Shown here piece by piece: positions 7,948 through 32,266 of a stretch of DNA of 38,987 nt. The notes under the pieces were generated by a model, which saw nothing but the letters and a program-made list of their open reading frames with translations, did no database searches and was not told the origin of the DNA. Location of the stretch: contig NZ_JAGSXH010000056.1 in the NCBI RefSeq assembly GCF_018283645.1, positions 1 through 38,987 on the forward strand, in the 5' to 3' direction. Within the stretch, counting starts at the first letter, position 1; each line of letters opens with the position of its first letter. This DNA is from Actinocrinis puniceicyclus. GTDB lineage: Bacteria > Actinomycetota > Actinomycetes > Streptomycetales > Catenulisporaceae. The position numbers and the translations under genes are program-made.

Positions 7948-8088
7948 TGCCGAGCTCCTCTTTACCGAGGGTGGGTACGGTGTACGGACCGTAGGCGTCG
8001 CCCGGTCCTTATCGCAGCCTAGCGGGATCCGCCATGCCGTCCAGGCCGTGTGTGAGACGTAGCGTCGGATGCCACGCAGCGTTTCCCC

Positions 8089-8119
8089 TTGCGCTTGCCA
8101 CGGGGCAAGGTCGTAGCGT
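8089..8119 (+). promoter_or_regulatory. MerR-type promoter/operator with 19-bp spacer
   Basis: A -35 element TTGCGC (8089-8094) and a -10 element TAGCGT (8114-8119) are separated by 19 bp, the overlong spacer that MerR-family activators act on by twisting the DNA. Inside the spacer lies a perfect dyad, CTTGCC (8094-8099), 4 bases, GGCAAG (8104-8109). The next gene is itself a MerR regulator whose ATG is at 8127, 8 bases after the -10, so the mRNA is probably leaderless. This fits autoregulation. Confidence 0.7.
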
Positions 8120-8126
8120 GGCCGGC

Positions 8127-9020
8127 ATGAGGCAAGATTCGCCGGACGCTCTTCTGACGATCGGGCGCATGGCGCGGCGCAGCGGCCTGAGCGCGAAGGC
8201 GCTGCGTCACTACGACCGCATCGGGCTCCTGCGCCCGGCAGCGGTCGACGAAGTCAGCGGATACCGCCTCTACCACCCCGGCCAGCTCGCCGAGGCGGCC
8301 CTCGTCGGGCTGCTGCGTTCCCTGGAACTGCCGCTGGAGCGCGTGCGCTGTGGTGTCGCTGCGTGGAAGCAAGGCGACATCGCAGCCCTCGACCGTCTGC
8401 TGGCCGAGCACCGGCGTCAGCTCGACGCCCGGGTGAGCCGCCTACGCGGCGCCCTGCACCGCATCGACCACCTGCTCAAGGAAGGTATCGCCCCCGCCAT
8501 GACCGAGCAGACCATGCCCGCCGGCCCGGCCACCGCACAGAGCGCGCCGGGTACGGGCACTGTCACCGACCAGCGCATGCTGGCCGCGCAACTGTTCAAC
8601 GAGACGTGGCGGCTGCTGGAGATGGAGCACCGCACCCGCGACGACGACGACCGCATGATCCACACCGCCCACGCCTCGCGCTATCACTGGGGCCAGACAC
8701 CCACCGCGACAGCCGCCAATCTGGCGCGCGGCGAATGGCAGATCTCCCGCGTCTACGCCGTGCTCGGCCGCCCCGAGCCGGCGCTGCACCACGCCCACCG
8801 GGTGCTGGACATATGCACCGGGAACCGGATCGGCGACTGGGATCTCGCCTTCGCCCACGAGGCCCTGGCCCGCGCACATGCCGTCGCCGGCGATCCCGAT
8901 CAAGCCCGCGCCGCCACCGACCAGGCCCTCGCGGTGGCCGAGGACATCGCCGAGGACGAAGAACGCGACCTGCTCTACGCGGACCTTGAGACCATCCCCC
9001 ACCAACCCCGCTACTGGTGA
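8127..9020 (+). CDS. MerR-family transcriptional regulator
   Basis: This 297-residue protein has an N-terminal winged HTH of the MerR type (TIGRMARRSGLSAKALRHYDRIGLL, about residues 10-35, then SGYRLYHPGQL). A coiled-coil dimerisation helix follows at about 75-125 (LLAEHRRQLDARVSRLRGALH). The C-terminal 170 residues are helical and Ala-rich with TPR-like repeats (for example ALHHAHRVLDICTGN and QARAATDQALAVAEDIAEDEE). There is no metal-binding Cys cluster, so a metal sensor is unlikely; a small-molecule or peptide ligand is more plausible. ATG 8127 was chosen because it lies just after a MerR-type promoter and homology begins there; an in-frame GTG at 8118 overlaps the -10 box. It converges with the FmdB gene 16 bases away. 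Confidence 0.85.
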   Translation: MRQDSPDALLTIGRMARRSGLSAKALRHYDRIGLLRPAAVDEVSGYRLYHPGQLAEAALVGLLRSLELPLERVRCGVAAWKQGDIAALDRLLAEHRRQLDARVSRLRGALHRIDHLLKEGIAPAMTEQTMPAGPATAQSAPGTGTVTDQRMLAAQLFNETWRLLEMEHRTRDDDDRMIHTAHASRYHWGQTPTATAANLARGEWQISRVYAVLGRPEPALHHAHRVLDICTGNRIGDWDLAFAHEALARAHAVAGDPDQARAATDQALAVAEDIAEDEERDLLYADLETIPHQPRYW

Positions 9021-14551: not shown

Positions 14552-15430
14552 ATGGCCACGTTCGACGAGCAGAGCGGTGTGCCGCCGACCGGCCCGACCG
14601 TGCGCCGGCTCATTCTGGGAACGCAGCTGCGCAGGCTGCGGGAACGGGCCGAGATCACCCGGGCCGAGGCCGCCTACAGCATCCGCGGCTCGGAATCGAA
14701 GCTCAGCCGCATGGAGTCGGGGCGCGTCGGCTTCAAGGAGCGCGACGTGGCGGACCTGCTGACCCTCTACGGCGTGACCGAGCAGGCGGAGCGCGCGAAG
14801 GTGCTCGACCTGGTCGCGCAGTCCAACGTGCAGGGCTGGTGGCACGCTTACAGTGACCTGATGCCGAAGTGGTTCGAGGACTACATCGGCCTTGAGGAGT
14901 CCGCGTCGCAGATCAAGGTGTACGAGCTGCAGTTCGTCCCCGGACTGTTGCAGACCCGCGACTACGCCCTGTCCATCCTCAGCCGCGGCCGCCCCGAGAA
15001 CGCGGACGTCGACGCCGAACGCAAACTGCGTTTGCGCATGCAGCGGCAGAAGGTGCTGCTGGGCCAGAACGCGCCGAGGCTCTGGACCGTCATCGACGAA
15101 TCAGTGCTCTACCGCAGGCTCGGCGGTGCCAGGGTGCTGCGCGCGCAGCTCGACCACCTGCTGGAGGTCACGACGCTGGCGAACATCTCGTTGCAGGTGG
15201 TGCCTTACCACACCAGCGGTTACGGCGCCGAGGGCCCGTTCACGCTGCTGCGCTTCGGCGAGCCCGAGCTCTCCGACATCGTGTACGTCGAGCACCTGGC
15301 CGGCGCGTTGTACCTGGAGAAGCCGGAGGAGATCGAGATCTACAGCCGGGCGCTCGACCGGCTGGCCGTGGAGGCCGAGACCCCGGCGCGCAGCCGGCAG
15401 ATCCTGCTCAAGGCCCGCGAGGAGATTTGA
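14552..15430 (+). CDS. XRE-family regulator with DUF5753 domain (WhiJ/Scr1-like)
   Basis: This 292-residue protein has an N-terminal HTH (about 20-75: LGTQLRRLRERAEITRAEAAY, SESKLSRMESGR) and a C-terminal DUF5753 domain (about 100-285, with YELQFVPGLLQTRDYA and LQVVPY). Regulators of this kind, such as WhiJ of Streptomyces coelicolor, work with a small DUF397 protein; in the studied cases the small protein relieves repression or modulates development. Such pairs are also annotated as Scr1-type toxin-antitoxin-like systems. A DUF397 gene follows 234 bases downstream and a DUF574 methyltransferase diverges upstream. The ATG follows GGGAGGGT. The gene is intact. Confidence 0.92.
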   Translation: MATFDEQSGVPPTGPTVRRLILGTQLRRLRERAEITRAEAAYSIRGSESKLSRMESGRVGFKERDVADLLTLYGVTEQAERAKVLDLVAQSNVQGWWHAYSDLMPKWFEDYIGLEESASQIKVYELQFVPGLLQTRDYALSILSRGRPENADVDAERKLRLRMQRQKVLLGQNAPRLWTVIDESVLYRRLGGARVLRAQLDHLLEVTTLANISLQVVPYHTSGYGAEGPFTLLRFGEPELSDIVYVEHLAGALYLEKPEEIEIYSRALDRLAVEAETPARSRQILLKAREEI

Positions 15431-15664: not shown

Positions 15665-15910
15665 ATGGCGGAGGAAACCACCACGCTCATCAATGGGTTG
15701 TCAGCCGATCTGCTGGTCGGCGCGGCATGGCGAAAGAGCAGCCACAGCGGGTACAACGGCAACTGCGTCGAGCTGGCGCCGCTGGCCGGCGGAGAGGTGG
15801 CCATGCGCAACTCGCGTGACCCGCACGGTCCGGCGCTGATCTACACCCGCGCCGAGATCGCCGCGTTCCTGGCCGCGATCAAGGACGGCGAGTTCGACGA
15901 CGTGCTCTGA
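15665..15910 (+). CDS. DUF397 small protein
   Basis: This 81-residue protein carries the DUF397 signature: AWRKSSHSGYNGNCVELAPL, then VAMRNSRDPHGPALIYTRAEIAAFLAAIKDGEFDDVL. These proteins, related to the products encoded beside whiJ and abaA in Streptomyces, act with XRE-DUF5753 regulators, and one such regulator lies just upstream. The biochemical mechanism is thought to be binding to the regulator, but this is not shown by sequence. The ATG follows GAGAG. The 234-base gap from the XRE gene, with its own repeats, suggests a separate promoter. Confidence 0.92.
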   Translation: MAEETTTLINGLSADLLVGAAWRKSSHSGYNGNCVELAPLAGGEVAMRNSRDPHGPALIYTRAEIAAFLAAIKDGEFDDVL

Positions 15911-15931
15911 TCCCTGGGATCGGCGCACCCC

Positions 15932-15965
15932 GCGCCGCCCGGTCCGTGCGGGGACCGGGCGGCGC
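15932..15965. terminator. Bidirectional hairpin terminator
   Basis: A perfect 14-bp stem pairs 15932-15945 with 15952-15965, with a 6-base loop. It lies between the DUF397 gene (plus strand, ends 15910) and the end of the seven-gene operon (minus strand, ends 16081). It has no T-tract. Confidence 0.8.
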
Positions 15966-16080
15966 CCGCAGGCGCAAGGGCAGGCGCACATGCGAAAGCA
16001 ACGGGAGAGCGCAGGTTCCGTTCGAAACCCGTCCGCGCACCGCGCCGGCGGCGGGCTGTGCCGTTACAGCGCGGGCTGGA

Positions 16081-16884
16081 TCAGAACTCTTCGAGCGTGA
16101 GCGTGGTCCACACGCCCACGTGGATCCGGTCCCCCGCGTTGACCGGGACCTCGGTCTCCACCGGTAGCCGCTGCTCGGCGCCGTTGAGCCTGGTGCCGTT
16201 CGCGGAACCGAGGTCCACCACGCGCCAGCCGCCGTCCGGGCCGCGCAGCAACTGCGCGTGCAGATGCGAGACGGCGGGATCGAGCGGCGGACCGGTCAGA
16301 TCGATCTCCACCGCGATGCCGCGACCGGTGGACGCGCGGCCGATCCGAAGCACCTGCCCGTCCAAGGCGAAGCGCCGCTCGACGGGGTACTTCGGGAACG
16401 GGAATTCGTCCTCGACGATGTCACCGCGCTCGACCTGCGCCGTGTAGTAGTCGCGGTCGGCGGTGACCACGACCCCCGTCGGCGCGCGGCCCACCGCCCC
16501 TTCGTGCCCGGCCTGCTGAACCGGCGCGGCGGCCGGCGGCGTGGACTGCGGTTCGGCGACGGATTGCGGGGCCGCGACCGGGCCGCTCGACTGCGGCGTC
16601 TGCGACTGCGGCGTCTGCGACGGCTGTGCCACCGGCTCGGGGGGCAGCAGCTGCGCCATTTCGTAGTCGTATCCGCATTCCTCGCAGAACCGGCCGCCGC
16701 GCTCGGCCCCGCACTGCGGACACGAGGCCTCCCCGGCTCCCTCCCCCGGCGCGCCGCCGCCCGAGAGCAGCGCGGTGCCCTCCAGCGGCGCCACAGCGGT
16801 GACCGGCGCGCCGCCCATCACCGCGCCGCAGGTGTCGCAGTAATCGGTGGTCTGCGATTCGTGCCCTGACGGACAACGCGCCAT
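16081..16884 (-). CDS. FHA-domain protein with N-terminal zinc ribbons
   Basis: This 267-residue protein is the last gene of the operon. Two zinc ribbons come first: CPSGHESQTTDYCDTCG (about residues 4-20) and CPQCGAERGGRFCEECG (about 55-75). A Pro/Gln-rich linker with a 15-bp tandem duplication (SQTPQ twice, 16591-16620) follows, then a C-terminal FHA domain (about 175-265) with LRIGRAS, SHLHAQL and DLGSANGT, the phosphothreonine-binding loops. FHA domains read pThr, so this is the likely partner of the kinase in the operon. It lacks the ETTS phosphorylation motif of mycobacterial GarA, so the interaction must differ. ATG 16884 was chosen because GGAGG is 5 bases upstream; a GTG at 16896 overlaps that site. 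Confidence 0.88.
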   Translation of the reverse strand: MARCPSGHESQTTDYCDTCGAVMGGAPVTAVAPLEGTALLSGGGAPGEGAGEASCPQCGAERGGRFCEECGYDYEMAQLLPPEPVAQPSQTPQSQTPQSSGPVAAPQSVAEPQSTPPAAAPVQQAGHEGAVGRAPTGVVVTADRDYYTAQVERGDIVEDEFPFPKYPVERRFALDGQVLRIGRASTGRGIAVEIDLTGPPLDPAVSHLHAQLLRGPDGGWRVVDLGSANGTRLNGAEQRLPVETEVPVNAGDRIHVGVWTTLTLEEF

Positions 16885-16906
16885 CGAAGCCTCCACGAGT
16901 CAGACC

Positions 16907-18214
16907 TCAGCCCTGATTGCCCTTGCCGACGCGGACGGTCTTGCTGGAGCGGGTGTCCAGCGCCATCTCGTCCGCGTCGCTGACCCGCGCCTTGAGCCGG
17001 ACCGTGCCGGTGACCGGGTCCTGCACGTCGACCACCCGGGCCAACAGCCTGGTGGTGTCCTCGTTGCCGGAAGCGGCGGCGAGCTGCACCGCGCGGCCGA
17101 GCCTGGCCGTCGCGGTGTCGTAATCGCCGTTCTTGCGCGCCTCCAGGCCCTCCTGGATCGCATCGGCCAGCTCCGCCTGCCCGGTGTAGTGCGCGACCTG
17201 CCGGTTCATCTTGGTCGAGAGCGCCGCGTCACCGGTCCACACGGCGCGCACCAGACCCTGGCCGAGCGACTGCGCCTGTCCGGAGCCGTCGAGCGCCACC
17301 AGCGAGGCACGGGCCGCCAGCATCTCGTCGCCGACCGAGCCGGGCCGCACCGCGACGCAGACGTGGTAGTCGCGGGACTCCGCGCCCCACGCCCCGGTCG
17401 GATAGTCCCCCGCCAGCGGCCCGGTCTGCACCCTGCGGCCGGTCAGGTCCACCACGCTCGGCGCGACCTGCTTGACGAACTTGATCGTCGAGCCCTGCGG
17501 CGACCACAGCCGCAGCCGGACGTCCGCGACCGCCTTGCCCATCGCGCCCTCGATCATCGCCCGGAAGTCCCCGGCCAGGCCGCTCGGGTCGGCCACGATG
17601 TCCACGGTGCCGAGCAGGCCGCCGGCGATCCGGCGCAGCTCCGCGACCACCCAGTCGGTGCCGATGCCGCGGCAGTCACAGGTGAAACGGCCCTCGCAGC
17701 GGGCGATGGCGCGGCCCAGGTCGTCCGGGCTCTCGTGCTCGTCCTTGCCGTCGGTGAGCAGGATCGCGTGCCGGATGGCCTGCTCGTGGCCGGTGAAGAG
17801 ACGGTCGGCCAGCGCGAGCCACTGGCTGATCGCGGTGCCGCCCCCGGGGGTGAGCCGGCTCACCGCCGCCTTGGCCGCCGCCCGGCTGGAGGCGTCCGCC
17901 GCGACCAGGTACTCGGTCGACGGGAAAACCATCCGGCCCACATGCGTCCCCGCGACGACGGCGAACGGCACGCCCTCGCGGATCGCGTCGATCGCGGCGT
18001 TCGTGGCCTGACGCGCCGCCTCCATCTTCGTGGACGGATAGTCCATCGAGCCGGAGCAGTCCACCATGATGACCTGCGCCGCGCGCGCCGCGGACGGCCC
18101 GGCCGCACCCGACGAGGTCACCGTCACGATCGCGTTGACCTCGCCGGCGCCTTCGGGCAGGAACTCGTTCTGATAAACGGCGACCTTGAACTGCGGCAGA
18201 TCCGGCGTGCTCAC
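16907..18214 (-). CDS. von Willebrand factor A domain protein
   Basis: This 435-residue protein has a vWA domain at about residues 45-230. The metal-ion-dependent adhesion site is complete: D52-x-S54-x-S56 in VDCSGSM, the threonine in GGGTAIS and the aspartate in LLTDGKDE. About 230-350 is a beta-rich region, and the last 80 residues are helical (QVAHYTGQAELADAIQEGLEARKNGDYDTATARLGRAVQLA), TPR-like. There is no signal peptide, so it acts in the cytoplasm, probably as a metal-dependent protein-binding scaffold. It starts with GTG, whose GTGA overlaps the stop of the phosphatase gene (18211-18214), behind GAGGGGAG. The FHA gene follows after 22 bases. Confidence 0.88.
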   Translation of the reverse strand: MSTPDLPQFKVAVYQNEFLPEGAGEVNAIVTVTSSGAAGPSAARAAQVIMVDCSGSMDYPSTKMEAARQATNAAIDAIREGVPFAVVAGTHVGRMVFPSTEYLVAADASSRAAAKAAVSRLTPGGGTAISQWLALADRLFTGHEQAIRHAILLTDGKDEHESPDDLGRAIARCEGRFTCDCRGIGTDWVVAELRRIAGGLLGTVDIVADPSGLAGDFRAMIEGAMGKAVADVRLRLWSPQGSTIKFVKQVAPSVVDLTGRRVQTGPLAGDYPTGAWGAESRDYHVCVAVRPGSVGDEMLAARASLVALDGSGQAQSLGQGLVRAVWTGDAALSTKMNRQVAHYTGQAELADAIQEGLEARKNGDYDTATARLGRAVQLAAASGNEDTTRLLARVVDVQDPVTGTVRLKARVSDADEMALDTRSSKTVRVGKGNQG

Positions 18215-19371
18215 GATGCGCTCCCCTCGTCGTAGTGCACTGTGGTGCGCGGTGCCGCCCCCTCGGGCGCCGGCGGCAGTCGCAGCGTCTGCGCGGCCTC
18301 GACCTCGCGTTCGGTCTCGGGCTCGGGCTCGGCCGGGGTGTACGGCGGATGCCGGGCGAGCACCGTGGTGATGTTGTCCTGACCGCCGCCGTCGAGTGCG
18401 ACCGCGGTCAGCGCGGCGCAGGTTGCGGCCAGCCCGTCCCGGCCGTCGCGCGCCAGGGCCGCCAGGTCCGTGGCGTCCCAGACGTAGTTCCACAACCCGT
18501 CGCTGCATACCAATACCAGGCCCGGCCCGCCGGGGGCGAAGTGGCGCACGTGCGGCGGCTCGGGCGGGGCGTCCGGCCCGAGCCAGCGCAGGATCGCGTG
18601 CGCGTGCGGCGCCTTGTACGCCTCGGCCTCGTCGACCGCTCCCCCGGCGATCAGCTGCCCGGCCCAGGTGTCGTCGTCGGTCAGCCGGCACGAGGCCGCC
18701 GGATCGGCGGCCAGCCAGTAGACGCGGCTGTCGCCCACCCAGCCCGCGGTGATCCGGCCGCGTTCCACGACGGCGGCGGCGGCCGTGCAGGAAGGCGCGT
18801 TGGCGCGGTCCGGGTACTCGTCGGCCAGGGCGGTGACCGCCTGCTGGGCCGCCTCGATCGCGGCGCTGAGGGCCACCGGGGCCGGCTCTCCGCGCCGCAG
18901 CGCCCGCACGAGAAGGTCCACCATGGTGTCCGCCGCCAGCTGCGAGGCGCGCTGCGGGTCGACCGAGCTGGACACTCCGTCGCAGACCACGACGACGCTC
19001 GCCGGGAACTCGGTGCCCTCGCCGATCACCGCGAAGGCCATGGCGTCCTCGTTGCGGCTGTGCCGCAGTCCCCGGTCGCTCACCCCCGCGACGATGTGCA
19101 GGTCACGCTCCCAGCGGTCGCGCGGCGAGGGCGCGAGCCGGCCGCACTGGTCGCAGTAGCCGTCGGTGAACGAGGTGCCGCCGCAGTCGGGGCAGGGAGC
19201 CGCGGCCTCGCCGGGCCCGGGGGCGCGGCGCACCAGCAGATCGGCGCCGCACGCCTCGCAGTAACCGTCCTCGGGTTGCACGGACGCCGCGCAGGCGGCG
19301 CAGACCGGTCCTCGCGCGGCCTGCGCCGCGCCCTGTTCCCGCCCGCCGCCGTGCGCCGGCTCGCCGCTCAC
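18211..19371 (-). CDS. PP2C-family protein phosphatase with two zinc ribbons
   Basis: This 386-residue protein begins with two zinc ribbons: C24-x2-C27 with C38-x2-C41 (EDGYCEACG), and C60-x2-C63 with C73-x2-C76 (TDGYCDQCG). The PP2C domain spans about residues 90-350, with GVSDRGLRHSRNEDA, VVVCDGVSSS, GWVGDSRVYWL, VCSDGLWNYV and GGQDNIT, so the metal-binding Asp residues are present. It should dephosphorylate pSer/pThr proteins, most simply those phosphorylated by the adjacent kinase. The C-terminal 40 residues are acidic and disordered. It starts with GTG overlapping the kinase stop (GTGA, 19368-19371). Translational coupling and the shared ribbon type tie it to the kinase. Confidence 0.92.
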   Translation of the reverse strand: MSGEPAHGGGREQGAAQAARGPVCAACAASVQPEDGYCEACGADLLVRRAPGPGEAAAPCPDCGGTSFTDGYCDQCGRLAPSPRDRWERDLHIVAGVSDRGLRHSRNEDAMAFAVIGEGTEFPASVVVVCDGVSSSVDPQRASQLAADTMVDLLVRALRRGEPAPVALSAAIEAAQQAVTALADEYPDRANAPSCTAAAAVVERGRITAGWVGDSRVYWLAADPAASCRLTDDDTWAGQLIAGGAVDEAEAYKAPHAHAILRWLGPDAPPEPPHVRHFAPGGPGLVLVCSDGLWNYVWDATDLAALARDGRDGLAATCAALTAVALDGGGQDNITTVLARHPPYTPAEPEPETEREVEAAQTLRLPPAPEGAAPRTTVHYDEGSAS

Positions 19372-21842
19372 AGCAGGGTCCTGGGTCGCAACGCATTGGC
19401 CTGGTCCACCAGTTCGATCCGGCTCCTTCGGTCGGGGGCCATGCGGGCGCGCGCACGGTAGGCGCGCTCCAGGGCCAGACGGATGCCGCGCTCGGTCAGC
19501 TCAGTGTCGAACACGCGGCCCTGCGCGACATCGCGGCCGGCCGCGGCGGCGGCGGGCCGGGCCGTGAGCCAGTCGAGCGCCGCGCGCAGCACCAGGCACA
19601 CCATCGACGCGTGCGCCTCGCCGTCCAGGCCGAGAGCGTCCACGCGGCTGCCCAGCTCGTGCAGCTGCGCCGAGGTGACCCACTGCGCGAAACCCGGGGA
19701 GCCGAGCCGGGTCGTGATCGCCTGCAGCTCGGCGGCGGTGCGGTGGATCGAGGACTCGGGCACCTGGCCGAGCACCTCCACCGCGCCCGCGTGGTCGTTC
19801 TGCGCGGTCCGCAGGCGGGCTATCGCGAAGGCCGCGGTGGCGTAGGACCTGTCCACGGTCCAGACCAGCCGGTAGTACCGCAGCGCGGTGGCGTCGTCGC
19901 CGGCCAGGTCCGCGGACGCGGCCAGCGCGAGCTTGGGCGCCGGCTCGCCGGGCAGCTCGTCGTAGCAGGACTCGAAGAAGGCGCGCGCGGCGGCGGCGTC
20001 CTCACGGATCAGCGCCAGCAGACCGCGGTACCACAGCACCCGCCAATCGTAAGGGTCCTGCTGTTGCAGCAGGTCGAGCCAGTCGGCGGCCTCCTCGACC
20101 CGGTCGTTGTCGATCTCGGCGCGCACCAGGCGATAGTAGACCTCGGTGGACGGGTTCGGCAGACTGTTGAGGGTATTGATGACCTGTCCCGGGTTGCCGC
20201 CGAGGGTGGCCAGGACGCCCGCGTGCGGGTCGGTCGGGTCCACCGCCGGGATCGGCAGCGCGGCGGCGAACTGCCTTCCCCCCGGGCGGCGCAGGTCGGT
20301 GCCGACGGCCATGCGCTCACCGGTGAACATTGCGCCGGGAGCCGGGCGCGGCAGGCCGTCGCGCAGCGCGAGCACCTCCCGCAGCACGCCGGTGAGCTGG
20401 GCGGCCATCTCGGCGGCCGAGGAGAAGCGCCGCTCGCGCCGCGGATGGGTGGCGCGGCGCAGCGCGCGGTCGAAGGACTCGTATTCGACCAGTACCGGCA
20501 CGCTCTCACGCGAAGGCAGGGTGGTGGCGAAGGCCGAGGTGAAGCCCTTGAAGTCGAAGGAGAGCACGGCCATCATCCGGCCGACGGTGAACAGGTCGGA
20601 CTCGATCGACGGCCCCCGCTCGGCGATCTCCGGGGCCTGATAACCGACGGTGCCGTAGACCGCGGAGTCATCGTCGTCGAAGGCCCGCACCGCGCCGAGA
20701 TCGATCAGCTTGAGCTGCTCCTCGGACTGGATCACGTTGTCCGGTTTGAAATCGCAGTACAGCAGGCCGATCGAGTGCAGGTAGCCGAAGGCCGGAAGGA
20801 CCTCGATCGCGTAGGCCAGCACCCGCTCCAGCGGCAGCGGCGCGCCGTGCTCGCCGCGGTGGTCCAGCGCGAGCTGCTTGAGCGACTTGCCGCCGACGTA
20901 CTCCATGACGATGTAGTCGTCGAGCTGGTGGCGCACGAAGTTGTAGATCCGCACGATGTTGGGGTGCTCGACCTCGGCGAGGAACCGGCGCTCGGCCACG
21001 GCGGCGGCCAGCGCGTCGGCGTCCCCGCTGTCCAGCAGGCCCTTGAGGGCGACCCAGCGCCCTGAGACGTTGTTGTCCCGGGCCAGGTAGATCCAGCCGA
21101 GTCCGCCGTGCGCGAGGCAGCCGAGCACCTCGTACTGGCCGCCGACCAGGTCGCCGAGGGCGAGCCTGGGGTTGAAGTCGTACGAACCGCCGCACTTGGC
21201 GCAGTAGCCGCTGGTGCGCCCCGGGCGTCCGTCCCGGGAGCGGCCGACCTGTGTGCCGCACTTGGAACAGAAGCGCTTGTGCTCGGGCACCTGCGGGTCC
21301 GCCAGCACCGCTTCGCCCGGGTCGCGGTACTCGACCTGCGGAATCTCGACCAGGCCCAGGCCCAGCCCGCCGCGTCCGGTGGAACGCGAGCCCTGGGTGG
21401 TCGGGCCGCTGCGCGTGGCGGCGGTGCGCGCGGACACCGCCGAGCTGCGCGCCCGGCCGGACGCGGTGCGCGCCGAGGAGGTTCCGGTACGCGTGGAAGA
21501 GGTCCCGCCGCGCGCCGGTGCGGCCGCGCCGGACGCGCCGGATCCGCTGCCCGCCGCGGGGGACGCGGCCGCCAGTCCGGCCGCCATCCCGCAGGTGTCG
21601 CAGTATCCGTCCTCGATCGCGCCGCCGCAGCCGGGCCGGGAACAGCGCGCCGCCCCGGACGTTCCCGGCGCACCCGACACACCCGGCACACGTGGGACCG
21701 GTGAGGCCGCGGCAGCCGCCGGCCGAGCCGATACAGCTGCCGGTGACGGTGACGGCGCACGCTGCGCGAGCCCGCAGGTGTCGCAGTATCCGTCCTCGAT
21801 CGTTCCGGTGCAGCCGGCCCGGCCGCACTCGACCCCGCTCAC
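19368..21842 (-). CDS. PknG-like serine/threonine protein kinase
   Basis: This 824-residue soluble kinase has two N-terminal zinc ribbons (C6, C11, C20, C23, and a copy about 61 residues later), a low-complexity Ser/Arg/Thr linker (about 90-160), and a PknG-type rubredoxin-like pair (FCSKCG, YCAKCG, about 185-220). The kinase domain (about 240-490) has a Gly loop HGGLGWIYLARD, K267 in VALKGLL, D364 in YCDFKPDNVI (in place of HRD, as in PknG), D381 in LIDLGAVR, and YQAPEIAERGP. The C-terminal third is a TPR domain. In mycobacteria PknG responds to amino acids through GlnH and GlnX and controls GarA; homologues of both sensor genes lie upstream here. The GTG start follows GGGGGAGG and overlaps the upstream stop (GTGA). 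Confidence 0.93.
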   Translation of the reverse strand: MSGVECGRAGCTGTIEDGYCDTCGLAQRAPSPSPAAVSARPAAAAASPVPRVPGVSGAPGTSGAARCSRPGCGGAIEDGYCDTCGMAAGLAAASPAAGSGSGASGAAAPARGGTSSTRTGTSSARTASGRARSSAVSARTAATRSGPTTQGSRSTGRGGLGLGLVEIPQVEYRDPGEAVLADPQVPEHKRFCSKCGTQVGRSRDGRPGRTSGYCAKCGGSYDFNPRLALGDLVGGQYEVLGCLAHGGLGWIYLARDNNVSGRWVALKGLLDSGDADALAAAVAERRFLAEVEHPNIVRIYNFVRHQLDDYIVMEYVGGKSLKQLALDHRGEHGAPLPLERVLAYAIEVLPAFGYLHSIGLLYCDFKPDNVIQSEEQLKLIDLGAVRAFDDDDSAVYGTVGYQAPEIAERGPSIESDLFTVGRMMAVLSFDFKGFTSAFATTLPSRESVPVLVEYESFDRALRRATHPRRERRFSSAAEMAAQLTGVLREVLALRDGLPRPAPGAMFTGERMAVGTDLRRPGGRQFAAALPIPAVDPTDPHAGVLATLGGNPGQVINTLNSLPNPSTEVYYRLVRAEIDNDRVEEAADWLDLLQQQDPYDWRVLWYRGLLALIREDAAAARAFFESCYDELPGEPAPKLALAASADLAGDDATALRYYRLVWTVDRSYATAAFAIARLRTAQNDHAGAVEVLGQVPESSIHRTAAELQAITTRLGSPGFAQWVTSAQLHELGSRVDALGLDGEAHASMVCLVLRAALDWLTARPAAAAAGRDVAQGRVFDTELTERGIRLALERAYRARARMAPDRRSRIELVDQANALRPRTLL
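21588..21802. repeat. Duplicated zinc-ribbon coding segment in the kinase gene
   Basis: A perfect 32-base direct repeat occurs at 21588-21619 and 21771-21802, 183 bases (61 codons) apart. It encodes the shared ribbon core IEDGYCDTCG in both N-terminal ribbons of the kinase. Nucleotide identity at this length suggests recent duplication or gene conversion. Confidence 0.88.
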
Positions 21843-23101
21843 GCTCGGATTCCTCCCCCTCGGCCGGGCTGGTCCAGGGCCAGCACCGCCTTCTGGTACG
21901 CCGCCAGCGCCCTCGTGGACGCGGCCAGATCGCACGGCTTGGTCCACAGCAGGTCGCGCGCCGCACCGTAGAGCGCCTCCAGCCGAGGATCCTCCGCCGC
22001 CCCCGATCTTGCCGCGCGCACCCGGTATCCCGCCAGTCTCGCGCGCAGTTCCCCGCGCCGCTCCAGCAGCCCGGCCACGGCCTGGTGCACCCGGTTCGCC
22101 GCGGCCAGCGCCGCTTCCAGGGCGTCGTCCAGCGCGGCGGCCTCCCCGGCCAGCCGGTGCCACAGCCCGCGTTCGCGCAGCTCGCCGAGCGCCGCCAGCC
22201 GCGCGCGCAGCGCCGCGGCCTGGGAGGTGGGCGCGGGCAGCGCGCCGACCAGGATCTTCTCCCGTGCCTCGGCCGCCGCGGCGCGCTGGGCGTCCTCCAC
22301 GTCGGCGATCCGGTCGATCAGCCGGGAGAGGCGCTCGGCCCGCTGCTCGAAGCCGGCGCGCAGGTCGGCCGCCCCGCTCACGGCCGCCGCCACCGCCTGA
22401 AGATTCCGGTTCACCCGCTCGAGACGCGCGGGCAGGTCGCTGCCGGGGGCTGCGGCGCCGATCGGGTCGGCGAAGATCTCGCGGCGCAGCCCGGCGTATT
22501 CGTCGCCGACGCCGGCCAGTTCGACGGCCGGGCCGCGCTCGCCCAGTTCCCGCACCGCGTCCGCCGCCTGCTTGAGCCGCTCCTGGAGCGGATCGGCCTG
22601 CTGGAACAGGCGGTTCCAGGCCGCGTCCGCCGCGGTCACGAAGTCGGCGGCGAGCTGGAAATCGGTGTTCATCCGGTGCAGCGTCTCGGCCAGTGTGGCG
22701 CTCTGGCTCACGGTGCTCGGGCCGAGAAGGGTGCGTTCGGAGAGCGCAAGCGGCTTGGTGGACAGCGTGATCGACCTGCCGCGCAGCAGCTCGGCGATCG
22801 CGGTCAGCTCCTCGGGTCGCGGCTTGGCGCGCCGCCCGCGGATCTCGGCCGCCCGGTTCAGCACGTCCTGGAAGGCGGTGTAGTCGTCCCAGAGCCCTGC
22901 GATGCGGGCGGCGGCGCGCTGCCAGCGCTGGGCCGTGATCCCGGTGAGCGGGGCGCTGTCGAGCAGCTTGTAGCCCGGGTGATCGGCCAGTTCCAGCAGC
23001 GCTTCGGCGACCCTGGCGGCGTCCTGGCCGAGCCGGGCCAGTTCGGCGTCCACGGCCTCGCGGGTCGGCGGGCCGGAAGCGGGAAAGAGCATCGCGGACA
23101 C
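21839..23101 (-). CDS. Helical coiled-coil protein of the kinase operon
   Basis: This 420-residue protein has no signal peptide, no membrane helix and no catalytic motif that I recognise. It is almost wholly helical and rich in Ala, Leu, Arg and Glu, with heptad-like stretches (for example about 195-300). Landmarks are TKPLALSERTLLGPST (about 115-130) and a C-terminal WTKPCDLAASTRALAAYQKAVLA. It lies between the solute-binding lipoprotein gene and the kinase gene. Its GTG start is one base after the upstream stop, and its end overlaps the kinase start (GTGA, 21839-21842). Its place suggests an adaptor between the membrane sensor and the kinase. That is inference from position only. An ATG at residue 4 is an alternative start. 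Confidence 0.8.
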   Translation of the reverse strand: MSAMLFPASGPPTREAVDAELARLGQDAARVAEALLELADHPGYKLLDSAPLTGITAQRWQRAAARIAGLWDDYTAFQDVLNRAAEIRGRRAKPRPEELTAIAELLRGRSITLSTKPLALSERTLLGPSTVSQSATLAETLHRMNTDFQLAADFVTAADAAWNRLFQQADPLQERLKQAADAVRELGERGPAVELAGVGDEYAGLRREIFADPIGAAAPGSDLPARLERVNRNLQAVAAAVSGAADLRAGFEQRAERLSRLIDRIADVEDAQRAAAAEAREKILVGALPAPTSQAAALRARLAALGELRERGLWHRLAGEAAALDDALEAALAAANRVHQAVAGLLERRGELRARLAGYRVRAARSGAAEDPRLEALYGAARDLLWTKPCDLAASTRALAAYQKAVLALDQPGRGGGIRA

Positions 23102-23102
23102 G

Positions 23103-24122
23103 TCAGTGAGCGTATTGCGCGGGCGGAGGCTGTTGCGCGCCGAGCAACGGTCCCAGCCAGTTGTCGTAGATCTTCTGCCAGGTGCCGTCGCCGCGGATCT
23201 GCTCCAACACGCCGTTGACGAAGCGGATCAGGCCGGGGGAATCGCGCGAGACCGCGATGCCGTAGGGCTCCGCCCCGAACGCAGGGCCGACCACGGCGGT
23301 GTTCGGGTCCTGGCGGGCGAGCCCGGCCAGGATCGTGTCGTCGGTGGAGATCGCGTCCACCTGGCCCTGCTGCAGCGCGACCAGGCAGTCGGTCAGGTTC
23401 GTCACGCCGTAGGCGATCGGATGCGAAGGATGATCCCGGATTCGCTCCAGGGACGTGGATCCGTACTGCGCGCAGACGTTCTTGCCGCCGAGGTCGTCGA
23501 GGGACTTGTAGCCCGAGTTCTTCAGCACCAGCAGCCGCTGGCGCGCGTTGTAGTACACGCTGGAGAAGAGCACCTGGTTCGCGCGGTCGCAGGTGATGGT
23601 GAAGGTGTCCACCACCATGTCGACCGCCTGGTTCGGGTCCGCGGTCTGCAGGGCACTGATGCGCTGGGCGTTGGTGACCGCCTTGAACTGGATGTGCGCG
23701 GCGTCCTGGGTTCCGAAGATGGCCTGCTCGACCTGCCTGGCGATGTCGATGTCGAAGCCGCTCTCCACTCCGGAGGAGTCGAGGTAGCCGGTGAGGTATT
23801 GGTCCTGCGCGACGCCGACGATGAGCTTGTCGCGCTCTTTGATCCTCGTGACGTCGGCAGAGGCGGCGTCGCCCGCGGTGGGACGCAGCGAGAGCGCGGC
23901 GGGCACGCACGCGGCGGCGCTGCCGGCCGGCGCCTGGGACGGTGATCCGGTGACGACGGAACCGGGCTGCGGCACGGCTACCGACGGGTGTGCGCCGACC
24001 TCCACCAAACCGCCGCTGCACGCGGACAGTACGCAGACCGTCGCGAGCGCGGTGCCCGGCAGCGCCCAGCGCCGCGATCCGCGGCCCCGTCGCGCGCCGC
24101 CGCGCCGAGTTTCGCTCGCCAT
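23103..24122 (-). CDS. GlnH-like solute-binding lipoprotein
   Basis: This 339-residue protein has a lipoprotein signal peptide ending in the lipobox VLSAC, lipid-modified C35. The rest is a type 3 solute-binding fold (about 80-330) typical of polar amino-acid receptors: KERDKLIVGVAQDQYLTGYLDSSGVESGFDIDIARQV, VTNAQRISALQ, VDMVVDTFTIT and QGQVDAISTDDTILAG. No permease or ATPase gene is near, so it is probably a sensor rather than part of a transporter, as proposed for mycobacterial GlnH, which binds Asp/Glu/Asn. ATG 24122 was chosen because GAAGGGAG precedes it and it gives a normal signal peptide; an in-frame GTG at 24167, overlapping the GlnX-like stop, is an alternative. Confidence 0.9.
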   Translation of the reverse strand: MASETRRGGARRGRGSRRWALPGTALATVCVLSACSGGLVEVGAHPSVAVPQPGSVVTGSPSQAPAGSAAACVPAALSLRPTAGDAASADVTRIKERDKLIVGVAQDQYLTGYLDSSGVESGFDIDIARQVEQAIFGTQDAAHIQFKAVTNAQRISALQTADPNQAVDMVVDTFTITCDRANQVLFSSVYYNARQRLLVLKNSGYKSLDDLGGKNVCAQYGSTSLERIRDHPSHPIAYGVTNLTDCLVALQQGQVDAISTDDTILAGLARQDPNTAVVGPAFGAEPYGIAVSRDSPGLIRFVNGVLEQIRGDGTWQKIYDNWLGPLLGAQQPPPAQYAH

Positions 24123-24163
24123 GCCCCGCTCCCTTCTCTCCCGCCCCTGCATGGGCGCCACGC

Positions 24164-25465
24164 TCACCGGTACTCCGCCAGCCGCCGGTTGATGCCGTAC
24201 GCGGCGGCGAGGGCGGCGAGCAGCGCGCCGGCCGGCCCGATCCACAGTCCGCCGCCGAGCGCCGACCCGGCCGCCCCGGCGTCCGCCGTGTAAGCAGCCT
24301 GATCCGCCTTGTAGGCGGCCGCCAGCGCCGCGTCGCACGCCGCGGAGGTGGCGCTGACCGTGTCGGGCGCCGCCTTGCCACCATGGCCGACGACCATGTC
24401 GACCGCCTTGGAATAGTCGCCGTCCTGCACGGTCAGTGAGACCTGGTTCATGCCCGTGGACACCTTCGCGAGCGCGAGCCCCGAGGCGTTGTCGAGCTTG
24501 AGCAGGTCGATCCGGCCCAGGGCGGCCTGCTCGGCCTTGAAATCCGCGCCGCCGTCCTCGCCCCGGTCCACCAGGGTCAGCGACTGGTAGGAGTCGGCGA
24601 GGGCGAGATCGTCACGCCCCTGAAGCATGGCCTCGACCCGGTCGAAGTCCGCTTGGGCGCGGTGCACGCCGGCCGTCGCCGACGAGACGGCGACCAGCGA
24701 CCAGACCACGACCCCGAGCGCGACCAGCACGCCGAGCGCGACCCCCGGGTTGACTCGCCTGCGGGTGCTGCGCGAGAGCTCCCGCGCGACCGCCGCGAGC
24801 GCCAGCACCGCGAGCAGCGCGACGACGAGGATCCAGACCGGGAAGCCGGAGGCGTTCGCCTGCGCGTGCGCGTGGGCGGCGGTCTCCTGGTCGGCGACGT
24901 CCTTCACGCGCGTGAGGATCTGATCGTGCATCAGCTTGGAGGCCTCGCGCAGATAGGCGCCCGCGACGGGGAAGCCGAGCCGGTTGTCCGCCTGCGCCGT
25001 CGCGATCTCGGCGGTGTAGAGCGGCATCCGCCGGGCGACTTCGCTCAGCCGCGCCGAAGCGGTCGGATCGCCGGCCAGGTCGCGCGACGCGCTCGCCAGC
25101 GCGTCCTCCGCCTGGGTGATGTCGCTCAGGTACTCCTGCTGCATCGGGGCCGGCGGGACCGGGCCGACCAGCAGTGCGGTCGCGGCGGTCGCGTCCGCGT
25201 CGGCGAGCGCGTGGTAGAGCTCGTCGACGTTCACCAGCAGCCGCTGTGCGGTGGCCGCCGAGCGGGTCTCCGAGTCCTGACGCGCCGCGAGCGTCGCCCC
25301 GCAGGTCGCGCCGACCGCGACGAGGGCGACCACTGCCGTGAACAGGACGGCCCACAGCCTGGCCGGGGTCGTCAGGCGGCCGCCGCGCGCGACCGGCGGT
25401 CCGCTCCCGGGCCCGGACCCGTGTCCGCCCGCCGACACCGGAGCCTGTGCGGTCGTCGTCGCCAC
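24164..25465 (-). CDS. GlnX-like four-helix membrane protein
   Basis: This 433-residue protein is the first of the operon. Membrane helices lie at about residues 37-61, 208-230, 238-262 and 403-427. Two extracytoplasmic helical regions (about 62-205 and 263-400) resemble four-helix-bundle sensor domains, as in chemoreceptors. A short Arg-rich cytoplasmic loop (ELSRSTRRRVNPG) joins helices 2 and 3. This topology and its place before the GlnH-like and PknG-like genes match mycobacterial GlnX, which is thought to relay the GlnH-ligand signal to PknG. The start is GTG at 25465 with no good ribosome site. A perfect TTGACA lies upstream. Confidence 0.85.
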   Translation of the reverse strand: MATTTAQAPVSAGGHGSGPGSGPPVARGGRLTTPARLWAVLFTAVVALVAVGATCGATLAARQDSETRSAATAQRLLVNVDELYHALADADATAATALLVGPVPPAPMQQEYLSDITQAEDALASASRDLAGDPTASARLSEVARRMPLYTAEIATAQADNRLGFPVAGAYLREASKLMHDQILTRVKDVADQETAAHAHAQANASGFPVWILVVALLAVLALAAVARELSRSTRRRVNPGVALGVLVALGVVVWSLVAVSSATAGVHRAQADFDRVEAMLQGRDDLALADSYQSLTLVDRGEDGGADFKAEQAALGRIDLLKLDNASGLALAKVSTGMNQVSLTVQDGDYSKAVDMVVGHGGKAAPDTVSATSAACDAALAAAYKADQAAYTADAGAAGSALGGGLWIGPAGALLAALAAAYGINRRLAEYR

Positions 25466-25583: not shown

Positions 25584-25619
25584 GCCGCGGCCACCGCCGT
25601 GCCGCGCGGTGGCCGCGGC
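25584..25619. terminator. Hairpin terminator after the HAD gene
   Basis: A perfect 14-bp stem pairs 25584-25597 with 25606-25619 around an 8-base loop, starting 5 bases after the HAD stop on the minus strand. It separates the HAD gene from the seven-gene operon downstream. Confidence 0.78.
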
Positions 25620-25623
25620 CGGA

Positions 25624-26313
25624 TCACAAGGCTTCTGATTCCTCGGCGAGCAGCTCGGGCAGTTCGGCGAGGCTGGTCAGCCGGAAGTCGGCCTTGGCGA
25701 TCAGGTCGCTGTGCTCCGCGACCAGGTGGCCCCACGGCCCGCGGCGGATGTGCGCGGTGCGCAGGCCCGCCTCCCAGGCCGGGCGCAGGTCGTTGTCCAG
25801 CCGGTCGCCGACGTAGCAGATGCGTTCCGGCGTGGCACCGGGCCGCAGGCTGCGGCAGACCTCGACGACCTTGGTGAAGAAGCGCGGATCAGGCTTCGAC
25901 ACACCCCAGGTGTCCGACGTGGTGACCAGGTCCACCGGCAGCCGAAGCGAGTCGAGGATCCGGTGCGAGCGCCGGGTCTGGTTCGCCGCGATCACGACCA
26001 GGTATCCCGCGGCGCGCAGCGCGGCCATCGTCGGGCGCGCGTCCGGGTAGAGGTCCGGTTCGCCGTAGTTCTCGGGCCGTCCCGCCGCGGCCCGCCGTTC
26101 GCGCTCCGCCTCCAGGTCGAAGCCGGGACGGAAGTACTCGAACACGTCGCGGTGGTCGCGCCCGGCGCCGATCACCGCGCCGAACACGGCGGAGAAGGTG
26201 TGCCGCGGAACCCCGAGCCAGTCGGCCCAGGAATGATATTCCACCGTCTCGTCGACGAGGGTCTCGCCGACGTCGAAGACCACTGCTTCGATGTGACGCA
26301 TGCTGATGGGCAC
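25624..26313 (-). CDS. HAD-superfamily hydrolase
   Basis: This 229-residue protein has the HAD motifs: FDVGETLVD with nucleophile D14, VVIAANQT (motif II region), the lysine in GVSKPDPRFF, and YVGDRLDNDL. In motif I the usual DxDxT reads D-V-G-E-T, so the second Asp is replaced by Gly, a variant I recall in other actinobacterial members. A helical cap (about 25-90) suggests subfamily I. It is probably a small-molecule phosphatase or dehalogenase-like enzyme; the substrate is unknown. GTG 26313 was chosen because AGGAG lies 8 bases upstream; an ATG at 26301 is an alternative. The gene is single, with a strong terminator behind it. Confidence 0.82.
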   Translation of the reverse strand: MPISMRHIEAVVFDVGETLVDETVEYHSWADWLGVPRHTFSAVFGAVIGAGRDHRDVFEYFRPGFDLEAERERRAAAGRPENYGEPDLYPDARPTMAALRAAGYLVVIAANQTRRSHRILDSLRLPVDLVTTSDTWGVSKPDPRFFTKVVEVCRSLRPGATPERICYVGDRLDNDLRPAWEAGLRTAHIRRGPWGHLVAEHSDLIAKADFRLTSLAELPELLAEESEAL

Positions 26314-26533
26314 GCTCTGGACTCCTGCCACTGTGTCGCTCGACCGGGCGCGCTTCGCGTCGGCACCTGCGCCCGAATCAGGTTCGGCGGGGAGCTTAGC
26401 GAGCCGACCGGCCGGCGGCACAGTTTTTGCACAGTTTGGATCCACGATTGGCGCAACCAGTGTGACTCAGGAGACTCCAGAGCCGTGCGTGTTGTGACTT
26501 CTCACAGCATGGCCGCGCGACGGCGGTGCCCGG

Positions 26534-28723: not shown

Positions 28724-29422
28724 TCAAGGCTCGAAGCGATAACCCATGCCGGGCTCGGTGAGCAACTGACGCGGACGCGACGGTTCGGGCTCCAGCTTCT
28801 GGCGCAGTTTCGCCAGGTAGAAGCGCAGGTAGTTCGTCTCCGACTGATAGGCCGGACCCCACACCTGTTGCAGCAGCTGCCTGCCGGAGACCAGCCGGCC
28901 CGGATTGCGGACCAGAACCTCAAGCACCGCCCATTCGGTCTTGGTCAGGTGCACCTGCTCGGGTGTCTGTTCGGGCGCCGCTGGGCGCTTGTGCACGCTC
29001 TTGGCGGCCAGGTCCACGACGTAGTGACCGATGGTCACGGCCGGCTCGGCCGCGGCGTCCGACTCGCTGCGCCGCACCAGGGCGCGCAGACGCGCCATCA
29101 GCTCGTCCATCGAGAACGGCTTGGTCACGTAGTCGTCGGCGCCCGCGTCGAGGGCGTCCACCTTGTCCGCGGCGTCCACGCGGCCGGAGAGCACCAGGAT
29201 CGGCACCCGCGTCCATCCGCGCAGGCCGGCGATCACCTCGGTGCCGTCCATGTCCGGAAGCCCGAGGTCGAGCACGACCACGTCGGGCAGGTGCCTCGCG
29301 GCCGCGGCCAGCGCGCTCGCGCCGTCCGCCGCGACGACCACCTCGTAGCGGCGGGCGCTGAGGTTGATACGCATCGCGCGCAGCAGCTGGGGCTCGTCGT
29401 CCACCACGAGGACGCGGATCAC
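28724..29422 (-). CDS. kdpE: KdpE-like response regulator
   Basis: This 232-residue OmpR/PhoB-type response regulator has a receiver domain at about residues 1-120, with phospho-acceptor D52 in VVLDLGLPDMDG, the acidic pair DDE near the start, and K in VTKPFSMDEL. The DNA-binding winged helix (about 130-230) includes LTKTEWAVLEVLVRNPGRLVSGRQLLQQVWGP and ends in LTEPGMGYRFEP, typical of KdpE. Its GTG start overlaps the kdpD stop (GTGA, 29419-29422) behind AGGAG. KdpE normally turns on the kdpFABC potassium pump under potassium limitation or osmotic stress. No kdpFABC is in the window. Confidence 0.9.
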   Translation of the reverse strand: MIRVLVVDDEPQLLRAMRINLSARRYEVVVAADGASALAAAARHLPDVVVLDLGLPDMDGTEVIAGLRGWTRVPILVLSGRVDAADKVDALDAGADDYVTKPFSMDELMARLRALVRRSESDAAAEPAVTIGHYVVDLAAKSVHKRPAAPEQTPEQVHLTKTEWAVLEVLVRNPGRLVSGRQLLQQVWGPAYQSETNYLRFYLAKLRQKLEPEPSRPRQLLTEPGMGYRFEP

Positions 29423-32046: not shown

Positions 32047-32266
32047 AACCGCAATCCTGCCATCAGGTGCGCGTGACTCATCCGGTTGACCGCGGGGCAC
32101 CCGGCGGGCGGTGTCGACCCGGCAGGAGCGCCGCCAATCGGGCCAACCGCCCTTTCCGGTCATCGGGTTCTGAGTTACCTTCGATGAAAGCCGCGATGAA
32201 CGTGCGGGCGGTCACCACCGCCCGCGCGCCGCGCTCCTGCCCACACGGATGAAGGAGCATTCGCTC

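Follow-up and report, generated by a model that had tools for sequence, protein, structure and literature searches.

A seven-gene PknG operon with shared zinc ribbons in Actinocrinis puniceicyclus and its possible relation to the three-gene operon of mycobacteria

The locus and its proteins

The protein kinase PknG is known from a three-gene operon, glnX-glnH-pknG, the wide conservation of which is also on record (PMC6069109, PMC8546545, PMC9769921; papers given by PMC number are cited here for single passages). A larger relative of this operon lies in the window analysed here, the whole stretch of 38,987 nucleotides on contig NZ_JAGSXH010000056.1 of Actinocrinis puniceicyclus (assembly GCF_018283645.1; genome of 6.77 Mb in 430 contigs). 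Seven genes, all on the minus strand and with refined starts, occupy positions 16081-25465. They are transcribed in the order glnX-like, glnH-like lipoprotein, helical protein, pknG, PP2C phosphatase, vWA protein and FHA protein (Table 1). N-terminal zinc ribbons are common to the kinase, the phosphatase and the FHA protein, which is a new feature. The textbook three-gene operon looks, from the phylogeny of the kinases, like a reduced form of the seven-gene operon, because three-gene kinases fall beside seven-gene kinases of the same family.

GTGA overlaps of 4 nt mark four of the six junctions (glnX/glnH, helical/pknG, pknG/PP2C and PP2C/vWA); the remaining two are gaps of 1 nt (glnH-helical) and 10 nt (vWA-FHA). 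An initial annotation, made from the letters alone, had described a seven-gene minus-strand set with overlaps or short gaps, and the list of open reading frames (ORFs) with refined starts agrees with its coordinates, its strand and its junctions.

The kinase bears the PknG signature of the known pathway, a kinase domain together with PknG_TPR and, outside corynebacteria, rubredoxin. Its scores for PknG_TPR (3.4e-73), PknG_rubred (5.1e-27) and Pkinase (1.1e-28) are all well over cut-off, and it matches the PknG structure 2pzi with an E value of 7.6e-156. The phosphatase matches PP2C_2 over cut-off (4e-11); the Stp1-type model NF033484 yields 1.2e-30, but below its own cut-off. The vWA protein is recognised by VWA_3 (6.6e-12) and VWA_3_C (1.5e-24), the FHA protein by the FHA domain (3.1e-11). 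GlnX covers the full model NF058618 with 248.9 bits, just below the cut-off of 250, and stays far under that of the narrower NF041460 (117.6 bits, cut-off 780); its gene sits beside the glnH-pknG set. GlnH is orthologous to the aspartate-binding GlnH of Mycobacterium tuberculosis, its best solved relative being 6h2t (E 5e-69). The motifs that the initial annotation had named are borne out by these matches for PknG, PP2C, vWA, FHA and GlnH, and by direct reading of the lipobox LSAC, the kinase motifs YCDFKPDN and IDLG, DCSGSM in the vWA protein and GR/S-H/NG in the FHA domain.

The motifs also hold beyond the window. A check of 106 loci found those of PP2C, vWA and FHA in 100 to 106 of them, the DFG-like motif of the kinase in 106, its glycine loop in 95 and a VAIK-like motif in 97. 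The FHA residues for phospho-threonine, G186, R187, S210, N233 and G234, are invariant in 19 aligned orthologues. The strict pattern of the kinase catalytic loop matched 51 of the 106 loci and failed in 55, chiefly on account of loops with CDFKVDN, in which valine stands in place of proline; this variant, that of Streptomyces-type kinases such as L083, makes up 51 of the 78 loops read. An inactive kinase in Streptomyces is nevertheless rejected, since D, K and N are kept in the loops read, which cover 78 of the 104 kinases linked to PP2C and FHA, the other 26 being unread. Judged by their motifs, the parts of the operon look competent.

The helical protein has no Pfam or NCBIfam family over cut-off. 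Its AlphaFold2 model (pLDDT 90.2, pTM 0.69) is nearly all helix, with helices of 50-60 residues, and a Foldseek search gave a best E value of only 0.54. The cytoplasmic domain of EzrA came out best in VIA-align (Z 12.0 and 11.5), a level that helical rods commonly reach by chance; we claim no relation.

Table 1. Features of the operon and of its two flanks (strand "." where none is assigned)
Feature	Length	Position	Strand	Basis
glnX-like membrane sensor/transducer	433 aa	24164-25465	minus	NCBIfam NF058618, 248.9 bits, 1e-73
glnH-like solute-binding lipoprotein	354 aa	23103-24167	minus	phmmer to M. tuberculosis GlnH 6h2t, 5e-69
Lipobox LSAC of GlnH		24018-24029	minus	motif
All-helical protein	420 aa	21839-23101	minus	no Pfam/NCBIfam family over cut-off
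PknG kinase (two N-terminal zinc ribbons, rubredoxin, kinase, TPR)	824 aa	19368-21842	minus	PF16918, PF16919, PF00069
Kinase N-terminal zinc ribbon 1		21771-21827	minus	motif
Kinase N-terminal zinc ribbon 2		21588-21644	minus	motif
Kinase rubredoxin-type metal site		21189-21269	minus	PF16919 and motif
PP2C phosphatase	386 aa	18211-19371	minus	PF13672, 4e-11
PP2C, two N-terminal zinc ribbons		19141-19302 (19246-19302 and 19141-19194)	minus	motifs
vWA protein	435 aa	16907-18214	minus	MIDAS DCSGSM and VWA_3_C; PF13768, PF18571
FHA protein	271 aa	16081-16896	minus	PF00498, 3.1e-11
FHA protein, two N-terminal zinc ribbons		16672-16875 (16825-16875 and 16672-16722)	minus	motifs
Perfect hairpin between HAD gene and glnX	14 bp	25584-25619	.	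z -3.79, no T run
Hairpin between operon end and convergent DUF397-like gene	12 bp	15934-15963	.	z -2.22 for 15850-15985, no T run

Zinc ribbons and the conservation of the set

The ribbons are of the type C-x(2-5)-C-x-YCxxCG. In the window, the N-terminus of the kinase, of PP2C and of the FHA protein carries two each, the first knuckle of the first FHA ribbon reading CPSGH. The initial annotation had rightly seen a zinc ribbon in the FHA protein; that the kinase, PP2C and an unlinked GarA share it had been missed. Of the distinct loci with pknG, PP2C, vWA and FHA, 96 in number, 87 have one or more N-terminal ribbons on the kinase (besides the rubredoxin), 94 on the phosphatase and 86 on the FHA protein; counted with repeats, the numbers are 90, 97 and 89 of 99. 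The vWA protein never has one (0/96), the helical protein once in 92. A ribbon occurs in a single one of 762 control ORFs (other ORFs of the fetched loci, codon-composition filter, first 200 residues) and in none of the 13 kinases that have just glnX and glnH beside them; the motif being a simple pattern and the controls coming from related loci, single counts could be off, and another pattern differs slightly.

What could such ribbons be good for? They might sense metal or redox state, much as the rubredoxin site of PknG would, and tune the enzymes one by one; a common complex would then not exist, and the operon would be a PknG pathway with its own off-switch. A perturbed rubredoxin metal site is reported to change PknG activity (PMC8546545, PMC6069109), and double zinc ribbons are generic (the window proteins yield only weak DZR matches, below cut-off). 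We nevertheless consider this explanation unlikely, for the ribbons recur on three operon partners and on GarA; the vWA protein has none, the helical protein hardly ever has one, and neighbouring ORFs seldom do.

Genomes, loci and families that have to be told apart carry handles with G, L and f, respectively. Actinospica (G001, G005) is taken to belong to f1 and Spirillospora/Actinomadura (G670) to f86, and f2 is read as Streptomyces (G035); from their sequences, f5 appears to be Mycobacteriaceae in the wide sense and f110, with the second kinase tree as a further guide, Pseudonocardiaceae. Loci were chosen by the helical protein or by PknG, and prevalence across all actinobacteria is not estimable from them; four loci are shared by the named and the unnamed set.

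The helical protein is present in 58 of 60 related genomes. Across the class, its profile matches 88 of 394 genomes at E 1e-5, partly over a part of its length only, and PknG_TPR matches 141 of 394 at 1e-10. The gene order of the window is complete in 21 of the 23 Streptomycetales-type loci read (f1 and f2), L095 having its helical gene split. The two exceptions, L092 (G039) and L204 (G043), retain the helical protein, PP2C and FHA in a region without glnX, glnH and vWA; L092 shows a trace kinase hit. Named GTDB genomes were searched with the helical protein, and the best 80 of 558 confirmed relatives included 56 loci with full flanks: 37 have the order of the window, 10 have glnX-glnH at the end and one holds all seven genes in another order, which makes 48 complete sets; four are without PP2C and FHA, two without PP2C and two without a visible glnX. 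Conserved order had been the initial annotation's own test for its claim that sensor, writer, eraser and reader form one unit, and these numbers support that claim, the conserved helical protein included. Its view that the phosphatase, the vWA, FHA and helical proteins stand outside the mycobacterial model fared less well: they lie beside pknG in helical-bearing loci of several families, and on the trees it is the three-gene operon that looks reduced.

The nearest named relative of the locus among the matches listed is Actinospica (family Actinospicaceae, order Catenulisporales), the helical proteins being 64 and 63% identical; records very close to that of the window were possibly left out. 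Further sets are found in f9, f80, f86, f87 and f43; the helical gene of f9, f80 and some f86 loci gives weak matches (18 to 34 bits) or none, with the other genes in place. Some loci of Actinomadura/Spirillospora type, L165 (= L236), L224, L230 and L277, keep the helical protein, pknG, vWA, glnX and glnH without PP2C and FHA.

The five cytosolic genes stay joined. The glnX-glnH pair precedes them, follows them (f86) or, in L106 from outside the class, lies on the strand opposite to helical-pknG-PP2C-vWA-FHA. The set therefore consists of two blocks, a sensor pair and a cytosolic block of five genes. Overlaps of 4 nt connect helical and pknG genes in 60 of 100 loci and glnX and glnH in 61 of 99, as counted from the start nearest the upstream stop, which favours overlaps. 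Looser junctions at some loci might suggest that unrelated signalling genes have clustered by chance or merely regionally. This is next to impossible, however, and we reject it: the gene order is conserved over several families, 4-nt overlaps are seen at many junctions, and the set moves as blocks.

Other kinases of this kind exist. A second module in f2 and f1 (L108, L109, L110, L113) combines a PknG-like kinase with a vWA protein and with a further protein, encoded upstream, the tail of which is weakly like the helical protein (18-41 bits); L109 and L113, the two that were scanned, contain a trypsin-like domain, and the vWA protein of L109 has a weak C-terminal zinc ribbon. L107 (G018) encodes a PknG_TPR kinase with a calcineurin-like phosphoesterase two genes upstream; no other module genes were detected there.

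Three-gene operons, GarA and a possible mechanism

The 36 PknG loci fetched from f5 comprise 30 with glnX-glnH-pknG only, four lone pknG genes and two seven-gene operons. Six genomes of two families hold both operon types: G586 and G656 of f5 and four Pseudonocardiaceae (Kibdelosporangium, two Actinophytocola and Actinocrispum). The three-gene kinases of f5, together with two lone pknG, come out as sister to the seven-gene kinases of f5 in a tree of 61 kinases (100/99 for the clade that joins them). A second tree, built quickly and without bootstrap from 48 kinases and rooted on the paralogues of L108, L109 and L113, recovers this relation (100), and in it the three-gene kinases of Pseudonocardiaceae are sister to the seven-gene ones of their own family (81). 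L194 (f86), with the order pknG-glnX-glnH, is nested among its seven-gene kin in both trees; L187 and L202 (f110) stand apart near the base of the first tree and with Pseudonocardiaceae in the second. A single clade of three-gene kinases is rejected by the approximately unbiased (AU) test (p-AU 0.004; 14 three-gene kinases, L194 being left out because the first tree had placed it in f86). The label "three" needs three changes on the 48-kinase tree and five on the 61-kinase tree, which also held L201. Rooted on the paralogues, the pattern reads as about three reductions.

GarA, the switch of the tricarboxylic acid (TCA) cycle, is encoded elsewhere. The FHA protein of the operon is rejected as a candidate for it, with 22.9 bits versus 183.4 for a match in another part of the genome (L111:7235-7951, plus strand, G000:C110). 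The latter covers model positions 3-130 of 130, though under the equivalog cut-off of 200; a zinc ribbon sits at its N-terminus, and VTST takes the place of the mycobacterial ETTS. GarA was found in 44/44 and 7/7 genomes asked. It carries the ribbon in all 31 genomes (28 + 3) with seven-gene-type loci read and no three-gene operon read; among these, G465 and G542 are without a detected helical gene, several have a second, unread PknG_TPR match, and in G378 a further kinase lies next to a divergent glnX-glnH pair (L201). The ribbon is also present in both reduced genomes (G039, G043). All 16 genomes with a three-gene operon lack it. The seven-gene operon is present as well in six of these 16, and with a ribbonless GarA docking by ribbon cannot occur there. 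The phosphosite region differs, too: the three-gene genomes have ETTSVFRADF or a close variant in 14 of 16 (the region was not printed for G154 and G132), and T-S-T/S-[ILM], as in ETTSTISISG, is seen in 24 of 28 genomes with a ribboned GarA. These differences may reflect one historical change, because the 16 ribbonless genomes belong to f5 and Pseudonocardiaceae.

Mycobacterial GarA docks on phospho-threonines in the N-terminus of the kinase (PMC8546545). The simple motif TQAxFRP is absent in 104/104 kinases linked to PP2C and FHA and seen in 4/13 kinases with only glnX/glnH. In the last 120 residues before the rubredoxin, Ser and Thr together number 29 on average in full loci and 16 in the three-gene set. 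Saccharopolyspora, an antibiotic producer, phosphorylates its GarA in the ETTS motif, and phosphoablative GarA is reported to double its erythromycin (PMC12321487).

The pocket of GlnH was compared by manual count with the residues named in PMC6069109. Arg147, Thr162, Arg169 and Asp250 are kept; Ser164 is replaced by Thr, Lys161 by Asp and Trp232 by Leu. Arg147, Thr162 and Trp232 touch the side chain of the ligand in the Asp/Glu pocket of the M. tuberculosis protein (PMC6069109). The position of Trp232 is Trp in 11 of 12 three-gene GlnH proteins versus 5 of 75 sensor-first seven-gene ones (83 in all, patterns listed for 75), where Gln is commonest; in the sensor-last type it is Tyr that prevails. 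The ligand is probably still an amino acid; the specificity may have shifted.

How might the parts work together? We favour, as something close to an even call, an amino-acid-gated PknG relay that forms one complex with its own writer, eraser and reader, with the mycobacterial three-gene operon as its reduced form. By homology to the published pathway, GlnH would bind an amino acid outside the cell and GlnX would pass the signal across the membrane to PknG; GlnH-GlnX have been proposed to activate PknG in the three-gene system (PMC6069109, PMC9769921). Shared zinc ribbons would hold three proteins together, namely PknG, the phosphatase PP2C that undoes its work and the FHA reader of its phospho-threonines. 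The assembly platform would be formed by the long helical protein and by the vWA protein, which bears a metal-ion-dependent adhesion site (MIDAS) motif. The FHA protein would read phospho-threonines, perhaps in the Ser/Thr-rich linker of the kinase. The likely shared substrate, in genomes with only the seven-gene type, would be the ribboned GarA, which PP2C would reset. Mycobacteria and relatives would then have lost eraser, reader, platform and ribbons from their three-gene operon, as the trees and the genomes with both types suggest. The relay fits the window kinase being the single PknG_TPR match of a genome that also encodes GarA, at another place; the role of ribbons in assembly, the nature of the ligand and the choice of GarA as target we infer. 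A bolder version appears more doubtful to us: ancestral PknG signalling would have been a self-contained complex coded by zinc ribbons, the ribbon being a membership tag that extends to unlinked GarA, and the three-gene pathway would have arisen by repeated stripping-down, some genomes running both.

The operon might also be a separate pathway that does not control GarA. Its kinase would then phosphorylate the operon's own FHA or vWA protein and have its output elsewhere, as in conflict-linked kinase-PP2C-vWA triads. Such a triad is described for GAP1-N2 systems (PMC7159879). The six genomes that combine the two operon types with just one GarA match, a ribbonless one, would fit, as would G039 and G043, which keep GarA, PP2C, FHA and the helical protein without a PknG_TPR match, and the related Streptomyces module with its PknG-like kinase, vWA protein, weakly helical-like tail and, in the two scanned cases, trypsin-like domain. 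On the other side, the operon holds the genome's sole PknG_TPR match, GarA is present in every genome asked, and the phosphorylation of Saccharopolyspora GarA (PMC12321487) speaks for GarA as a target, the operon type of that species not having been looked at. On balance, a separate pathway is improbable.

The relay, in turn, has to live with a number of adverse findings. The GlnH pocket of the window departs in part from the aspartate-binding one. The best fold match of the helical protein, EzrA (Z 12), does not rise above the chance range of helical rods. Gaps of more than 30 nt separate glnH and the helical gene in 57 of 80 loci, PP2C and vWA in 44 of 100, and vWA and FHA in 45 of 98. Part of f87 (L179, L182) is without N-terminal ribbons on kinase and FHA. 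The genomes G039 and G043 yield no PknG_TPR match at 1e-10, so the helical protein, PP2C and FHA can outlast it. As to the trees, the outgroup branch is long, a support of 81 is modest, L187 and L202 shift between trees, and the extra genes may instead have been gained more than once. Finally, GarA does not comply throughout: the 16 genomes with a ribbonless form all belong to f5 or Pseudonocardiaceae, and the loss could be one event unrelated to the operon; six genomes combine the seven-gene operon with ribbonless GarA; G369 has pknG-PP2C-vWA-FHA with a ribbonless and G527 pknG-glnX-glnH with a ribboned GarA.

Surroundings of the operon and known systems

Upstream, on the strand of the operon, lies a HAD hydrolase gene (25624-26445); downstream follow a hairpin and then convergent genes. 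The initial annotation had placed hairpin terminators at both ends. The hairpins are real, with stems of 14 and 12 bp; terminator function is not borne out, neither stem having a T run and a terminator scan giving 0 sites, versus 2.1 on average in shuffles. To call them terminators is an inference, and the upstream one, 4 nt past the HAD gene stop, may belong to the HAD gene. Directly past the FHA stop (15985-16084) the sequence folds no better than shuffles (z 0.03). Searches for sigma-70-type promoters and for tRNAs found none. The convergent genes encode an HTH_31-DUF5753 regulator (14552-15430) and a small protein (15665-15910) that we take to be DUF397-like. Farther off lie a KdpD-type osmosensitive histidine kinase (29419-32163, upstream, same strand as the operon) and a MerR-type regulator fused to TPR repeats (8034-9020).

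PknG is a much-studied bacterial kinase, and the way in which GlnX acts on it has been called elusive (PMC9769921). Direct candidates for the GlnX-PknG link, in Streptomyces as in other actinobacteria, are the conserved phosphatase, FHA reader, vWA and helical proteins. Should the ribbon be an assembly tag, bacteria would have in it an easy means of insulating one kinase pathway from others; the genome here has 27 Pkinase matches, 26 over cut-off. The mycobacterial system would then be a derived minimal form.

Related logic is known from other corners of bacterial signalling. The kinase YegI of Escherichia coli stands together with the PP2C-like phosphatase YegK and the vWA protein YegL, a combination also seen here; a solute-binding protein, GlnX, FHA or TPR is not known to belong to it. 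In the threonine phosphorylation pathway of type VI secretion, PpkA has a vWA tail and TagQ is a lipoprotein. That pathway, with PpkA, PppA, Fha1 and TagR (PMC3224232), resembles the operon in logic, having an envelope sensor, a kinase, a PP2C eraser and an FHA reader, but its sensor and kinase families differ from those here. Ten neighbouring ORFs of the window were scanned, most without any match, and neither type VI secretion genes (no genome-wide search) nor GAP1-N2/GTPase genes (no dedicated search) were among them.

Similar in composition are the actinobacterial GAP1-N2 systems, in which a kinase-zinc-ribbon protein, PP2C and a standalone vWA protein form a triad (Kaur et al. 2020, PMC7159879). 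Common to both is a ribboned active kinase beside PP2C and a standalone vWA; that triad is tied, in the passages cited, to a GAP1-N2/GTPase conflict system, whereas glnX-glnH, FHA, the helical protein and a PknG-type TPR kinase make up the set here. Searches of open-access papers brought up no description of a seven-gene PknG unit or of shared ribbons; the gene-neighbourhood figure of PMC6069109 (Fig. 2B) may show neighbours.

The closest relative is GlnX-GlnH-PknG-GarA/OdhI of Mycobacterium and Corynebacterium. It has orthologous GlnX, GlnH and PknG with rubredoxin and TPR, encoded by adjacent genes, and a GarA orthologue in the genome. Four extra genes, the N-terminal ribbons of the kinase, the replacement of Trp232 in GlnH and the ribbon of GarA set the system here apart, as may the lack of the TQAxFRP-type motif, which is seen in 4 of the 13 kinases with glnX/glnH alone. 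The glnX-glnH-pknG part is already on record; what the wider unit adds, above all, is a set of conserved partners for PknG, the pattern of ribbons and genomes in which both forms occur.

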